Below are positions 48,753 to 58,485 of a stretch of 64,000 nucleotides of DNA, piece after piece; the first letter of the stretch is position 1, and every line of letters starts with the position of its first letter. Origin of the DNA: an uncultured Oscillospiraceae bacterium (GTDB lineage: Bacteria; Bacillota; Clostridia; Oscillospirales; Oscillospiraceae). Position numbers and translations under genes: made by a program. The stretch covers positions 1-64,000 of the forward strand of contig CANRIF010000001.1 of the NCBI GenBank assembly GCA_947630645.1, read 5' to 3'. Below the pieces are notes generated by a model. The model saw nothing but the letters and a program-made list of their open reading frames with translations, searched no databases and had not been told where the DNA came from.

Positions 48753-49739
48753 TTATTCAAAGGTCACGTTGGCGGGAAGGTACTCCAGAATATACTCGAT
48801 GTGGTCTATCTCCTGGCTCAAAGCGATCAGATACTCGTAATCCACGCTCTCAAATCCGTCCAGCCAGTTCATGATGCCGGCATAGACCGCGTCCATGATC
48901 TCCTTGTCCGGGGAAGCGGGAACGTAGTCATCCCGGACAGGCGCAGGCGGCTCACCGGTGAGAGTGCTGATGCAATAATTGGTGAATGCTTCATCGAAAT
49001 ACCGGAACGTGCCCGGGTCGGTGGGCCAGACAAGGGCCGCCGGGTCGATGCCGTTGGGCGTCAGATATTCGTCCTCCACCGCTTTGCCGATATAGGTCAG
49101 CAGCTCCTGGAGGTCCTCCTCCGTCACCTCGTCCTCCGCCGTCTTGGCGGGCCGTTTCTCGCCGCCGGAGAGAAGTTCCTCTATGAACGACTCATACTTC
49201 CCTTCCATGTCGGTGGTCGTATTGCCGAACAGGCTCAGGAAGAGATCGTCTGTTCTGTCCCCGCTGATCTGCTGCTGTTCCAGCCAATCGGAGACGGCCG
49301 CGACCACCTCCAGCTGGCTTTCAGTCCCCAGATAGCCATTCGTATCCGCGCAGATCGACTCGGCGGCGCCTGGGCCTCCGTTGCCTCCATCCAGAATATC
49401 CGTGATGGCGTCAGGGTAGGTCGTCAAGAGCCGCTCCATCGTCAAGCGAATGTACTCGAAGGCGTTGTCGATGTCCTCGCGCTCAAAGCCGCCGATGGCA
49501 TCCGCCAGGGCCTGCATATCTTCCTCGGTGAGAGCGTAGTCGTTCAGCTCTTCCTCCGAAGGCCCGGCGTCACCGTGGCCGTGTGCGGCGTCGTTTTTCG
49601 CTACCCATTCCAGAAACTCGTCCCACTCCATCTCGCTGGGATCGACATCGGAAGTCCCATCGCCCGCCGCGAAGGCCCCGGTCCCCAGAGACAGGACCAG
49701 GCACAGGGCAAGGAGGGTCGCTACTGTTCTTTTCTTCAT
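48753..49739 (-). CDS. Secreted acidic protein of unknown function
   Basis: A 328-residue protein with a clear signal peptide (KKRTVATLLALCLVLSLGTG, cleavage near AFA/AGDG) and no lipobox. The mature part is rich in Asp/Glu with short alpha-helical stretches (for example EEELNDYALTEEDMQALADA) and no recognised domain. ATG at 49739 has AGGAAAG upstream; an earlier ATG would prepend 12 residues that break the signal peptide. A hypothetical protein, exported or wall-associated. Confidence 0.7.
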   Translation of the reverse strand: MKKRTVATLLALCLVLSLGTGAFAAGDGTSDVDPSEMEWDEFLEWVAKNDAAHGHGDAGPSEEELNDYALTEEDMQALADAIGGFEREDIDNAFEYIRLTMERLLTTYPDAITDILDGGNGGPGAAESICADTNGYLGTESQLEVVAAVSDWLEQQQISGDRTDDLFLSLFGNTTTDMEGKYESFIEELLSGGEKRPAKTAEDEVTEEDLQELLTYIGKAVEDEYLTPNGIDPAALVWPTDPGTFRYFDEAFTNYCISTLTGEPPAPVRDDYVPASPDKEIMDAVYAGIMNWLDGFESVDYEYLIALSQEIDHIEYILEYLPANVTFE

Positions 49740-49879
49740 CTTTTGCTTTCCTTTCCCGATCAAGATTACAGCCACCGTCAGAAAGGAAGTTTATATCCGG
49801 CGGTGTCATGCTGCGCTGTCCCAACGGTACTCGCCCGCGGGAACAGGCTTTTGATACCTGCCCCGCGAACTTTCCCGCC

Positions 49880-50078
49880 GAAACAACAAAGGCGGCGCAG
49901 GGTAAAACCCCACACCGCGCACAACACAACACAAAAGCCGCACAACCCGCCCTTGTAAAAAGCCAAGGGAACAGGTATAATGAGCCTTGGGCGCTGAAAA
50001 GCTGTGTAGGAGGTTCGCGCTCCTGCATAGGGCCGTGAGGTGCTGCTATCACCTTGCGGCCCGCCTTTGTTATTCCGC
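49880..50078 (-). ncRNA. Candidate structured RNA with long-range closing helix (6S-like layout)
   Basis: Minus strand: promoter TTGCAC-N17-TATAAT (50086-50114) would start an RNA near 50078. Its 5' end (complement of 50061-50074) pairs over 14 bp, including one U-G wobble, with the complement of 49882-49895, closing a structure of about 195 nt. Inside are a 13-bp hairpin (GGGCCG..., about 50031-50063) and a GCAGGAG/CTCC(TAC) hairpin near 50002-50028. Size, promoter and closing helix resemble 6S RNA, but the sequence is not recognised as a known family. Confidence 0.4.
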
Positions 50079-50085
50079 TACTGCC

Positions 50086-50114
50086 ATTATAGCGCGTTGT
50101 TTTCTTGAGTGCAA
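50086..50114 (-). promoter_or_regulatory. Promoter of the candidate RNA
   Basis: TTGCAC (complement of 50109-50114), 17-nt spacer, perfect TATAAT (complement of 50086-50091). The -35 box is the first six bases of repeat copy 1. Confidence 0.5.
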
Positions 50115-50189
50115 GAGTTTTTCCGACACGCGCCGACCATACAAAGCAGACCCGGGCGGGAGCATCGTTTTGATGCTCCCGCCCGGTTT
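50109..50189 (+). repeat. 81-bp direct repeat, copy 1
   Basis: Matches 51537-51617 at 80 of 81 positions (single A/G difference at 50143). Its second half is a strong hairpin, CGGGCGGGAGCATC with GATGCTCCCGCCCG, then GTTT, which can act as a bidirectional terminator. It precedes the unknown gene at 50257. Confidence 0.92.
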
Positions 50190-50217
50190 GTGAAGGGTTT
50201 GCACGATATGGTATAAT
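50188..50217 (+). promoter_or_regulatory. Promoter of the 418-residue unknown gene
   Basis: TTGTGA (50188-50193), 18-nt spacer, perfect TATAAT (50212-50217), 40 nt before the GTG start. It begins at the last bases of repeat copy 1. Confidence 0.55.
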
Positions 50218-50256
50218 ACACCCATCATATTATCAACGGGAGAGAGGTGACGGCAG

Positions 50257-51513
50257 GTGCCGGGGAAGCTGACGCAGCCGAAGGTGCGGCAATATAGGAA
50301 CTGGCTCGGCCATGATATCCTCTTCGGCGCGTATTCCTATGTATACGACGAAAAGAGCCGCGTCCTGCTGGACCGGCTTTTCACGCTGCTGGAGCAGATC
50401 GCGCCTGCCGGGGAGGATGGTGCGCGGACGCTGTGGTTTCGGGCGGAGCGCGGGCCGATTGAGGACTATGGCGAAGCGGACGAGCTGATCGCGGAAGGTG
50501 AATTCACAGACCGGGCGGCGTTCGTGCAGGCCTGGGAGCGGGATTTCCCCGACGAGGTCGCCTGGTACGCGTTCTCCGCCATCGAGCGGAAGGAGGAGCG
50601 GTTCCGGGCCGTCTTACTGGGCCACCGGCTGGTGATCGTGCAGGACCAGAACCGGGAGATGTGCGACTATCCGGCGGACATCTCAGAGTTCGTGCAATGG
50701 CTGGTCGATTGCGCCGGGGAGTGCATAGAGATGCTCCGGGCCGGCACATACAATGACTATGTCCGGGAGCATCTGCCGCCGCAGCATAGGGTGGGGACGC
50801 TCCGCCGCCAGGACTATTGGGACATCTGGCCGGAGGAAAAGGCGGCATTTTTTTGGGACACCTCCGCAGAGGATGTTGCCGCGTTCCTCCGGCTGGCCGC
50901 GGCGCAGCCGAAAGAACGGAGCGCATTCACGCCTCGGCTGGCGGCCATGACGGCGGGCGACTTCTTCCGGTTCTGCTCATTGGGCTACGCGGCCAATGGC
51001 TATCCTGCGCGGCGCCTGTCCCCAAAAAAGCAGTACCTTCGATTTGCCGACGGGCGCGACGAGGGGCTGACAGGCATCGACGAGAAGTCCCCCGAGGCGT
51101 TTTATGCCTGGCTCACTACCAGGCACGGCGGGGGGCATCCGTGGGAGGTGTGCCAGGGCGGTGATTCGACCCATATATCCCTTTATGTGGTCCATGACAG
51201 CGGCGGCTATTGGCTCCGTCTGGCCGGAAGCGCCGTGAACCGGACCATGGAGACGGTGCGGTTTTATCTCGCTCTTTGCCGGGCGGGGGTCCCCGTGTAT
51301 CTGGACGAGGCGGACATTCTGGCAGAGCGCCTTTTGGGGACGGAACAGATCGGCGTTGTGCCGGAGGGCGCGAGGCCCGAAGCCGGGGAGGGATATTTCC
51401 CCGGGCAGAGGATCATCGCGTTCATGAACCTGCCGGAAGAGGACCGGGAACAGTTCGTGCGGCGCTGTGATTGGCAGCCGATCGCCGAAGCGTCGCTGCT
51501 GTGCGCGGACTGA
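50257..51513 (+). CDS. Unknown 418-residue protein between direct repeats
   Basis: Soluble 418-residue protein with no signal peptide or membrane segment and no domain that I recognise. It is rich in aromatic residues and charged pairs (FGAYSYVYDEKSR, WLTTRHGGGHPWEVC, GEGYFPGQRIIAFMNLP). The segment GGDSTHISLYV looks like a beta strand in a compact domain. GTG start at 50257 with GAGAGAGG upstream. The gene has its own promoter and is framed by 81-bp repeats on both sides, so it could be a small mobile or duplicated unit. Confidence 0.7.
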   Translation: MPGKLTQPKVRQYRNWLGHDILFGAYSYVYDEKSRVLLDRLFTLLEQIAPAGEDGARTLWFRAERGPIEDYGEADELIAEGEFTDRAAFVQAWERDFPDEVAWYAFSAIERKEERFRAVLLGHRLVIVQDQNREMCDYPADISEFVQWLVDCAGECIEMLRAGTYNDYVREHLPPQHRVGTLRRQDYWDIWPEEKAAFFWDTSAEDVAAFLRLAAAQPKERSAFTPRLAAMTAGDFFRFCSLGYAANGYPARRLSPKKQYLRFADGRDEGLTGIDEKSPEAFYAWLTTRHGGGHPWEVCQGGDSTHISLYVVHDSGGYWLRLAGSAVNRTMETVRFYLALCRAGVPVYLDEADILAERLLGTEQIGVVPEGARPEAGEGYFPGQRIIAFMNLPEEDREQFVRRCDWQPIAEASLLCAD

Positions 51514-51536
51514 TAGAGGACCCGGGCCGGGACCGT

Positions 51537-51617
51537 GTGCAAGAGTTTTTCCGACACGCGCCGACCATACGAAGCAGACCCGGGCGGGAGCATCGTTTTG
51601 ATGCTCCCGCCCGGTTT
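51537..51617 (+). repeat. 81-bp direct repeat, copy 2
   Basis: Same orientation as copy 1, 1428 bp downstream, one mismatch. It begins 24 nt after the stop of the unknown gene and supplies its terminator hairpin. The following 51618-51792 holds no gene or signal that I can support. Confidence 0.92.
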
Positions 51618-55308: not shown

Positions 55309-55374
55309 TCAGCTAGAATTGTCCGTGTTTTGTGCGGAAAAATTATTTAATTATTTCAGATGGGAGGACCGATC

Positions 55375-58300
55375 ATGACCATGAAGAAGCTGTTTGCGCT
55401 GCTTCTCTGCCTGGCGATGGTGCTGGGCCTGGCCGCCTGCGGCGGCGGGACCGCGCCTACCCCCTCGGAGGCGCCCAAGGAGGAAGCGGAGCCGACCGAG
55501 GCCCCGGAGGAAGAGGCCGAGGAGCCGGAGCCCACGGAGGCGCCGGAGGAAGAGGCTGAACCTACGGAGGAACCCAAGGAGGAGGAGCCGGAACCCACCG
55601 AGGAACCCAAGGAGGAGGAACCCGAGCCTACCGAGGAACCCGAGGAAGAGGCTGAGGCCACGGAGGAGCCGGAGACGGCGGAGGAGCCGAAGGACGAGGA
55701 GCCCGAGACCGCCGAGGCCGCGGAGGAACCCAAGGATGAGGAACCCGAGGCTGCGGAGGAGCCGGAAGTGGCCGCGGAGCCGGTGGAGATCCGCTGGTGG
55801 GTGCCGCCCACGTTCATCCAGGACCCGGACGATCCCGCTGGCACCTATGAGGAGAAGCTGGCGGAGGCCTTCCACGAGGAGTATCCCAACATCACGGTGA
55901 AGGTGGAGACCATCGACTTCACCACGGCCAGCGACAAGATCACGGGCGCCATCGAGAGCGGGACGGCAGCGGACGTGCTGTTCGACGCGCCGGGGCGCAT
56001 CATCGAGTATGGCAAGAACGGGAAGCTGGTGCCGCTGGACGATATGTTCACGGAGGAGTTCATCGCGGACGTGGGGAACGACGCGCTGCTGACCAGCTGC
56101 CAGGGCGACGGTGTGTACTATATGTTCCCGATCAGCGCCTCTCCGTTCTACATGGCGATCAACGAGGATATGTGGGAAGACGCCGGCGCGATGGAGTATG
56201 TGAACCTGGAAGGGGACCGCTCCTGGACGACGGAGGACTTCGAGAAGGCGCTGGAGGCGCTGTATGACAAGGGGTACAACCCCGGCGTGCTGTTCTGCAA
56301 CGGTCAGGGCGGCGACCAGGGTACCCGTGCGCTGATCGCGAACCTGTATAGCGGCAGCGTGGCGGACCTGGAGAAGTACACGTTCGACAGCCCGGAGATG
56401 ATCAAGGGCCTGGAGAAGGCGCAGGAGTGGATCGAGAAGGGCTGGCTCGGCAACGGCGTTGAGTACAACGGCGGCCAGAGCATCGAGCTGTTCGTGGCGG
56501 GCCAGACCAGCTTCGAGCTGTGCTGGGGCACGTCCGCGGCCGGCAACAACGCGGCGACGATGGAAGAGAACGGCGTGAAGCCGATCTCGCTGCCGTTCCC
56601 GTCTGACGACGGCAAGGCGGAGCTGGAGTACCTGGTGAACGGGTTCTGCGTGTTCGACAACGGGGACGAGGCGAAGGCGGCCGCGGCGAAGCAGTTCATC
56701 CAGTGGCTGTGCGACAGCGAGGAGAACGTGGTTCGGACGGGCGCGTTCCCTGTGAAGCAGAGCATGGGGAACCTGTATCCGGACGACGCGGAGAAGGAAC
56801 TGCTGCTTGAGTTCACGAAGATGTACGGTCCTTACTACAACACGATGGACGGCTTTGCGAACATGCGCGCGCAGTGGTTCGACATGTTGCAGCGGATCAC
56901 GGACGGCGGAGATGTGACGGAACTTGCCACCGCCGCTACCGAGGCCTCCAACAAAGAGCTGAACATCGACCCCGCCGCTGTGGCGGCTCCCGGCCCGGCC
57001 GAGATGCCCGAGGCAGAGGAAGAGGAAGAGAAGCTGGAGGAAGAGGTCGAGGAAGAAGTCCAGGAAGAGGTCGAGGAACTGGAAGAGGAGATCGACGAAC
57101 TGGCTGAAGACGCCGGCGAGGCCCTGGGCACCGCCGCCATCGGCGCCATGGAAGACGCCGTGGAGGGCGAGGACGCCGAGGAGCCGGAGACGGCGGAGGA
57201 GCCGAAGGACGAGGAGCCCGAGACCGCCGAGGCCGCGGAGGAACCCAAGGATGAGGAACCCGAGGCTGCGGAGGAGCCGGAAGTGGCCGCGGAGCCGGTG
57301 GAGATCCGCTGGTGGGTGCCGCCCACGTTCATCCAGGACCCGGACGATCCCGCTGGCACCTATGAGGAGAAGCTGGCGGAGGCCTTCCACGAGGAGTATC
57401 CCAACATCACGGTGAAGGTGGAGACCATCGACTTCACCACGGCCAGCGACAAGATCACGGGCGCCATCGAGAGCGGGACGGCAGCGGACGTGCTGTTCGA
57501 CGCGCCGGGGCGCATCATCGAGTATGGCAAGAACGGGAAGCTGGTGCCGCTGGACGATATGTTCACGGAGGAGTTCATCGCGGACGTGGGGAACGACGCG
57601 CTGCTGACCAGCTGCCAGGGCGACGGTGTGTACTATATGTTCCCGATCAGCGCCTCTCCGTTCTACATGGCGATCAACGAGGATATGTGGGAAGACGCCG
57701 GCGCGATGGAGTATGTGAACCTGGAAGGGGACCGCTCCTGGACGACGGAGGACTTCGAGAAGGCGCTGGAGGCGCTGTATGACAAGGGGTACAACCCCGG
57801 CGTGCTGTTCTGCAACGGTCAGGGCGGCGACCAGGGTACCCGTGCGCTGATCGCGAACCTGTATAGCGGCAGCGTGGCGGACCTGGAGAAGTACACGTTC
57901 GACAGCCCGGAGATGATCAAGGGCCTGGAGAAGGCGCAGGAGTGGATCGAGAAGGGCTGGCTCGGCAACGGCGTTGAGTACAACGGCGGCCAGAGCATCG
58001 AACACTTTGTGGCGGGCCAGACCAGCTTTGAGCTGTGCTGGGGCACGTCCGCTGCCGGCAACAACGCGGCTACGATGGAAGAGAACGGCGTGAAGCCGAT
58101 CTCTCTGCCGTTCCCGTCTGACGACGGCAAGGCGGAGCTGGAGTACCTGGTGAACGGCTTCTGCGTGTTCGACAACGGGGACGAGGCGAAGGCGGCCGCG
58201 GCGAAGCAGTTCATCCAGTGGCTGTGCGACAGCGAGGAGAACGTGGTTCGGACGGGCGCGTTCCCTGTGAAGCAGAGCATGGGGAACCTGTATCCGGACG

Positions 58301-58485
58301 ACGCGGAGAAGGAACTGCTGCTTGAGTTCACGAAGATGTACGGGCCTTACTACAACACGATGGACGGCTTTGCGAATATGCGCGCGCAGTGGTTCGATAT
58401 GTTGCAGCGGATCACGGACGGCGGAGATGTGACGGAACTTGCCACCGCCGCCACCGAGGCCTCCAACAAGGGCATGGCCGGCTGA
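55375..58485 (+). CDS. Lipoprotein with two tandem family-1 sugar-binding domains
   Basis: A 1036-residue protein. A lipoprotein signal peptide ends in LGLAAC (lipobox) and is followed by a Glu/Pro-rich linker of about 110 residues with repeated EEPKEEEPEPT-like units. Binding domain 1 spans about 139-527; an acidic, partly coiled-coil-like linker (PEAEEEEEKLEEEVEEEV..., about 528-640) joins it to domain 2 (about 644-1036). The DNA of 55663-56954 is repeated at 57178-58469 (offset 1515 bp, 505 codons, in frame) with only about a dozen differences, all in the last third. One pair of residues differs clearly: IELF in domain 1 and IEHF in domain 2. It is the binding protein of the sialic acid/amino sugar importer. 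ATG 55375 follows GGGAGG by 7 nt. Confidence 0.88.
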   Translation: MTMKKLFALLLCLAMVLGLAACGGGTAPTPSEAPKEEAEPTEAPEEEAEEPEPTEAPEEEAEPTEEPKEEEPEPTEEPKEEEPEPTEEPEEEAEATEEPETAEEPKDEEPETAEAAEEPKDEEPEAAEEPEVAAEPVEIRWWVPPTFIQDPDDPAGTYEEKLAEAFHEEYPNITVKVETIDFTTASDKITGAIESGTAADVLFDAPGRIIEYGKNGKLVPLDDMFTEEFIADVGNDALLTSCQGDGVYYMFPISASPFYMAINEDMWEDAGAMEYVNLEGDRSWTTEDFEKALEALYDKGYNPGVLFCNGQGGDQGTRALIANLYSGSVADLEKYTFDSPEMIKGLEKAQEWIEKGWLGNGVEYNGGQSIELFVAGQTSFELCWGTSAAGNNAATMEENGVKPISLPFPSDDGKAELEYLVNGFCVFDNGDEAKAAAAKQFIQWLCDSEENVVRTGAFPVKQSMGNLYPDDAEKELLLEFTKMYGPYYNTMDGFANMRAQWFDMLQRITDGGDVTELATAATEASNKELNIDPAAVAAPGPAEMPEAEEEEEKLEEEVEEEVQEEVEELEEEIDELAEDAGEALGTAAIGAMEDAVEGEDAEEPETAEEPKDEEPETAEAAEEPKDEEPEAAEEPEVAAEPVEIRWWVPPTFIQDPDDPAGTYEEKLAEAFHEEYPNITVKVETIDFTTASDKITGAIESGTAADVLFDAPGRIIEYGKNGKLVPLDDMFTEEFIADVGNDALLTSCQGDGVYYMFPISASPFYMAINEDMWEDAGAMEYVNLEGDRSWTTEDFEKALEALYDKGYNPGVLFCNGQGGDQGTRALIANLYSGSVADLEKYTFDSPEMIKGLEKAQEWIEKGWLGNGVEYNGGQSIEHFVAGQTSFELCWGTSAAGNNAATMEENGVKPISLPFPSDDGKAELEYLVNGFCVFDNGDEAKAAAAKQFIQWLCDSEENVVRTGAFPVKQSMGNLYPDDAEKELLLEFTKMYGPYYNTMDGFANMRAQWFDMLQRITDGGDVTELATAATEASNKGMAG
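55663..56954 (+). repeat. Large tandem duplication, unit 1 (binding domain)
   Basis: 1292 bp nearly identical to 57178-58469. The first 800 or so bases look identical by eye; the remainder has scattered, mainly third-codon-position differences. Confidence 0.9.
57178..58469 (+). repeat. Large tandem duplication, unit 2 (binding domain)
   Basis: Second copy, separated from unit 1 by 223 bp of unique acidic-linker coding sequence. Both copies start inside the Glu/Pro-rich linker, where short repeats could have served as the recombination point. Confidence 0.9.

Follow-up and report, generated by a model that had tools for sequence, protein, structure and literature searches.

The more important feature of this locus, missed in the original prediction, is a regulatory RNA element at the first of two 81-bp direct repeats in the window (the whole 64,000-nt stretch of DNA analysed here, from an uncultured Oscillospiraceae bacterium). 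The element spans positions 49821-50114 on the minus strand, and repeat copy 1 starts exactly at the -35 box of its promoter, where GTGCAA reads as TTGCAC on the minus strand. With somewhat better than even confidence, we read the element from its sequence as one of a family of leaders that would be controlled by cis-antisense RNAs and privately addressed. This confidence applies to the reading as a whole, in which the repeats would be a copy of the upstream edge of the element, the promoter-upstream and terminator part of a dispersed regulatory element having been duplicated recently.

In the mechanism we propose, TTGCAC-17-TATAAT would drive a structured 5' leader of about 260 nt for an exported-protein gene. 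On the plus strand, TTGTAA-17-TATAAT would drive an antisense RNA of about 92 nt, which would cover the 5' end of the leader and consist of two main hairpins and a U-rich tail. The antisense RNA would recognise its own leader via the P2 and P3 loops and then invade the 5' strand of P1, lowering the expression of that one gene by way of the terminator-like P5, by disruption of P1, the helix closing the 5' end, or by both. Candidates for the output step are P5 termination, mRNA stability or translation, and owing to the variable loops, the many copies within a cell would not interfere with one another. The 81-bp repeats would bracket and insulate an accessory gene, and a recombination deletion across them could remove this gene while retaining the -35 box of the leader promoter. 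The features of the locus are listed in Table 1.

Table 1. Coordinates of the features at the locus (positions in the window).
Feature	Position	Strand	Remark
81-bp direct repeat, copy 1	50109..50189	.	upstream edge of leader promoter, plus hairpin
81-bp direct repeat, copy 2	51537..51617	.	23 nt past the stop of the 418-aa gene; -35 box kept, -10 absent
Hairpin of copy 1, CCGGGCGGGAGCATC-GTTTT-GATGCTCCCGCCCGG	50152..50186	.	stem dispersed in the genus
Hairpin of copy 2, TTTT tail	51580..51614	.	probable terminator of the 418-aa gene
Leader promoter, -35 TTGCAC (50114-50109), 17-nt spacer, -10 TATAAT (50091-50086)	50086..50114	-	predicted from sequence; conserved in copies
Structured leader RNA, about 260 nt, 5' end about 50080, helices P1-P6	49821..50080	-	predicted
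P1 5' strand, AAUAACAAAGGCGG	50061..50079	-	
P1 3' strand, CCGCCUUUGUUGUUUCGGC	49877..49895	-	includes the U-rich tail of P5
P5 hairpin, terminator-like, tail CTTTGTTGTT	49892..49918	-	
P6 hairpin, GAA/AGUA-like internal loop	49821..49880	-	near the start of the exported-protein gene
Exported-protein gene, MKKRTVATLLALCLVLSLGTGAFAA...	48756..49739	-	3' of the leader; signal peptide by eye
Nested antisense promoter, TTGTAA-17-TATAAT	49953..49981	+	conserved in copies
Predicted antisense RNA, about 92 nt	49988..50079	+	predicted from fold and tail
P3' hairpin of antisense RNA, 7-nt variable loop GTTCGCG at 50013-50019	50003..50029	+	
P2' hairpin, variable loop CTGCTAT at 50043-50049, and U-rich tail	50030..50074	+	terminator-like antisense end
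418-aa gene, GTG start	50257..51513	+	patchy; homologues elsewhere
Promoter-like sequence of the 418-aa gene, TTGTGA-18-TATAAT	50188..50217	+	-35 overlaps the end of repeat copy 1

Leader copies were detected by DNA search in 25 of the 35 genus genomes, with up to 14 per genome, and a covariance model of the leader core found matches in 51 of the 201 genomes of the family, covering 38 of 106 genera, with up to 16 copies per genome. More than 200 copies from at least 38 genera of one family were examined. The exact core pattern was located at least 118 times in named genomes, for the most part MAGs of Oscillospiraceae, many with 'Lapin' sample names, and also in Flintibacter muris; in a class-wide sample, one genome outside the family matched it. 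Copy counts from MAGs are probably too low: many leader copies in G194 are no more than a few hundred bases from the end of a contig (loci L265-L268, L270 and L271), the pattern expected where assembly breaks at near-identical copies. One further copy was found with a signal-peptide gene on a contig of a viral collection (L222, 5320-5454 of IMGVR_UViG_2588253904_000003), which may be prophage or misassigned host DNA. The leader family is absent from Rfam; a scan of 37 sources against Rfam 15, with E-values of up to 1, gave no match placing the element in a family, and a keyword search of open-licence papers found no description of it. Gut Oscillospiraceae are abundant and their regulation is little studied, and a family-wide leader preceding surface and secreted proteins would offer direct access to the control of their exported proteome.

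Scored with a home-made signal-peptide predictor, a signal-peptide or lipoprotein gene follows 91 of the 106 scorable leader copies, as opposed to 33 of 454 control genes at the same loci, and the divergent copies in other genera are mostly next to an exported-protein gene as well. Domains encoded downstream include BspA-type leucine-rich repeats, S-layer homology domains, choline-binding repeats and transglutaminase; acyltransferases and an AMP-binding enzyme are among the exceptions. At four loci (L063, L066, L132 and L164), the leader precedes genes for short peptides (MSEEKK...LEAVSGGEK...) that are not signal-peptide proteins and look like RiPP or bacteriocin precursors. The window (49740-49820, minus strand) and close congeners (L045-L050) also have a subclade-specific extra stretch between leader and start codon. 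It contains a CUUCCUUUC-like run, a possible translation switch, that is complementary to the GGAAAGG ribosome-binding region.

Several tests support a folded leader. In an alignment of 89 diverse copies, which was fitted to the model and so leans towards structure, 94.7% of the cells were paired and 15 of the 18 pairs changed on both sides; none of 500 shuffles reached the covariation score, and slid partners paired in 37-54%. Alignment-free duplex tests of strand against strand favoured the cognate partners from P1 to P6 on the sense strand (z from -7 to -19), and P1, P5 and P6 pair better on this strand. As the copies are related, the covariation and duplex results do not amount to independent probabilities, and the counts are not independent either. 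The P5 hairpin is followed by at least five T within the next 9 nt in 146 of 146 copies (background 4.6%), with a tail interrupted by G, and P1 involves the U-tract instead of the 5' arm of this hairpin.

A large and highly conserved unpaired core combined with covarying helices, the better pairing of P1, P5 and P6 on the sense strand, and the use of one leader type in front of many different exported-protein genes would also suit an orphan riboswitch, or a leader bound by a protein, through which exported proteins would be co-regulated as a single regulon. The promoter-like sequence on the plus strand would then be a by-product of the RNA motif. We demoted this reading on its own, and now consider it rather unlikely, because of the antisense promoter and the fold tests. 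TTG opens the antisense -35 box in 205 of 213 copies, 196 of the 209 copies with a -10 box have a 17-nt spacer, and the promoter score reaches at least 9 of 12 in 97% of copies versus 2.4% of shuffles. While the last three bases of the -35 box and the spacer sequence vary, TTG and the 17-nt distance are kept, which is promoter-like and would not be needed by an RNA motif. Furthermore, the first 95 nt or so fold better as antisense than as sense RNA in 162 of 162 copies (mean -47.0 versus -31.8 kcal/mol), and it is not obvious how the hypervariable P2 and P3 loops would serve ligand binding. The antisense P2' hairpin is followed by at least five T within the next 9 nt in 94% of copies (background 4.6%). 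At L063 and L066 the stretch is rearranged, and the antisense promoter can be read as TTGACC at 18 nt.

Both strands of the element appear, as judged from sequence, to give rise to structured RNAs, since the antisense strand has a promoter, a stable fold and a tail while P1, P5 and P6 favour the sense strand. The plus-strand RNA, with its complete small-RNA gene anatomy (promoter, stable fold and U-rich end), might be seen as a free-standing sRNA, or a protein-binding RNA, that acts on targets elsewhere and overlaps the leader of the exported gene only incidentally. We judge this improbable because the opposite strand has a promoter conserved at a fixed distance and constantly placed before the start codon for an exported protein, together with three covarying helices (P1, P5 and P6) of its own. 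Weak matches of the leader model to the opposite strand, overlapping the true match, were observed at L149 (207-313), L120 (3246-3347), L181 (3056-3164) and L050 (1655-1754). The antisense P3' hairpin also resembles the sense P5 hairpin (GUGURGG...CCUGCA), which suggests an inverted-duplication origin or a shared binding partner.

The many copies, the end-to-end complementarity and the partial self-similarity of the two strands would also be features of a MITE-like small transposable element, the P1 strands serving as terminal inverted repeats. However, fixed terminal inverted repeats common to the copies were not found, as the P1 strands co-vary with compensating changes. The constant orientation and distance to the exported gene and the conservation of promoters on both strands further make a MITE-like origin very hard to credit.

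Among 166 copies we counted 149 distinct P3 loops, and 162 of the loops were 4-7 nt long. The first 105 nt or so of ten paralogues in G194 are nearly invariant except for the P2 and P3 loops, and such divergence confined to the loops is what private antisense addressing predicts. We tentatively propose, at somewhat less than even confidence, that each antisense RNA is addressed to its own near-identical leader solely by the hypervariable loops of P2 and P3, so that many copies could act independently in each cell. The variability could also be neutral drift in free loops. The YUNR loop motif, unlike in many antisense systems, is not enriched in the element (27 antisense P3' loops versus 39.6 expected).

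By analogy, the known systems closest to the element in working would be the pT181/pIP501 attenuators, ColE1 RNA I/RNA II and the DonS family. ColE1 RNA I is an antisense RNA of about 100 nt whose hairpins commonly have 7-nt loops and which is complementary to the 5' part of RNA II. The predicted antisense RNA would similarly be a hairpin RNA of comparable length opposite the 5' part of a transcript, whereas the element belongs to a multi-copy chromosomal family and is not a replication primer. Riboswitches that control exported-protein genes, such as the c-di-GMP riboswitches of Clostridia, are likewise structured leaders with their own promoter in front of surface-protein genes; unlike them, the element has no Rfam match and has an antisense promoter nested inside.

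In the attenuators of plasmids pT181 and pIP501, transcription attenuation is controlled by antisense RNA (PMC3753616). Judged by sequence, common to these attenuators and the element would be a leader with a terminator-like hairpin before the gene, a nested opposing promoter for the antisense RNA (here predicted, with TTG in the proportion given above), a structured antisense RNA with a terminator-like end, and hairpin loops as the likely first contact. The element differs in being chromosomal, in having many paralogues per genome and in preceding exported-protein genes instead of a plasmid rep gene. Moreover, with P1 pairing to the U-tract, we identified no textbook antiterminator that would pair with the terminator's 5' arm. 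Changes in the loop and upper stem made engineered pT181 variants orthogonal (PMC3753616). If the loops set specificity here too, the family would comprise natural orthogonal antisense-controlled leaders like those hand-built by synthetic biologists (PMC3753616), and hundreds of copies would be available from which to derive the sequence rules of RNA-RNA specificity. According to excerpts of two reports on DonS, these are cis-antisense RNAs of 78-128 nt at Bacteroides polysaccharide loci, each opposing and repressing the gene for an exported (outer-membrane) protein (PMC7366714, PMC10994844). By that description, both would be families of gut-bacterial cis-antisense RNAs opposite exported-protein genes; DonS belongs to another phylum, and the excerpts do not describe hypervariable loops or a shared structured leader.

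The repeats that led to the element are exactly where the original prediction had placed them. The two copies are identical at 80 of 81 positions, with a sole A/G mismatch at repeat position 35, and similarity drops off abruptly outside both edges. The initial 20 nt occur twice in the window versus 0.01 times expected. We also carried out the proposed search for further copies: the complete 81-mer has two sites in the whole MAG (1.87 Mb, 134 contigs, 73% complete), both at this locus, and is absent from 98 relatives, in which parts of the repeat alone recur. Around any other gene of this MAG and the 98 relatives, the complete 81-mer was not found. Because of the mismatch, the longest exact stretch common to both copies is shorter than 50 bp; a simple assembly join is accordingly less likely to have produced the repeats. 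Copy 1 is in the expected place before the leader, as it is in the relative G013, and therefore copy 2 is most likely the duplicate of copy 1.

Each repeat contains one perfect 15-bp hairpin. A consensus scan called the hairpin of copy 2 terminator-like on the plus strand (tail TTTTGTT) and that of copy 1 on the minus strand (tail GTCTGCTTTG). The bidirectional terminator ascribed to each repeat is thus plausible by sequence, although the tails are weak. The recurrent part of the repeat is chiefly this hairpin: the pattern GGCGGGAGCATC(N3-8)GATGYTCCCGCC occurs in 13 of the 35 genus genomes, at about 1-6 sites apiece and with unrelated loops, and the reversed control gave zero matches. A dispersed intergenic repeat family, as had been suggested, therefore holds for the hairpin stem but not for the full 81-mer with its two copies. 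At L027, L029, L039 and similar loci, several of the dispersed GGGCGGGAGCATC hairpins come after a second short conserved motif, CTTCCCATTTGT..GGGAGATGAACA, and may be parts of a larger REP-like element.

The repeats frame a single gene, as predicted. We judged its 418-aa ORF to be real because an orthologue with 70% identity exists in 1 of 34 congeners and full-length homologues with 43-45% identity in other families of the order; one partial match lies within the same family. The claim that the gene has its own promoter agrees with the promoter-like sequence upstream (Table 1). The protein has no match in Pfam, NCBIfam or PADLOC, an insignificant lone match in PHROGs, no credible structural relative in the PDB, and no plasmid or viral relative that we could find; a single-sequence AlphaFold model was useless (mean pLDDT 37.7). 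As judged by eye, recombinase- or integrase-like ORFs occur around the distant homologues, and the close orthologue adjoins a HEPN-like ORF. The patchy distribution of the gene and the recombinases around its distant homologues make an accessory unit plausible. The homologues in G094 and G056 (loci L246 and L247) have a common block of neighbouring ORFs, including recombinase-like ones, likely due to a common mobile element of that lineage.

The gene might be a true mobile cassette that site-specific or homologous recombination excises and inserts at the 81-bp repeats. In favour of this are the 99% identical, sharp-edged repeats around one insulated gene, its patchiness and the recombinases near its distant homologues. 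On the right flank, 19 congener genomes gave a match, and in most of these the GDSL gene and its right-hand neighbour stay together; synteny breaks near the GDSL stop codon (3' end), beyond which the genomes differ. G013 retains, on the left, the exported gene with its leader and promoter as well as a single, diverged version of the repeat region; the gene that adjoins this region is another one, and the right flank differs too. In the proposed search for a single-repeat empty site, a clean one, with one repeat and both flanks, was not found in the relatives compared, because the two flanks are not neighbours there. The inspected loci of the homologues of the 418-aa gene had neither the repeat core motifs nor the leader, the MAG holds only the two full copies, and with copy 1 at its expected spot a simple duplication would be enough. 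Gain or loss of a cassette by recombination, as originally suggested, accordingly retains support from the accessory gene, the synteny break and G013, and we consider it unlikely. Further along the plus strand (55360-58485), a 1041-aa ORF resembling a lipoprotein-like solute-binding protein contains its main domain twice in nearly identical form (EIRWWVPPTFIQDPDDPAGTYEEKL... 2x), which reflects either an internal duplication that kept the frame or an artefact of assembly.
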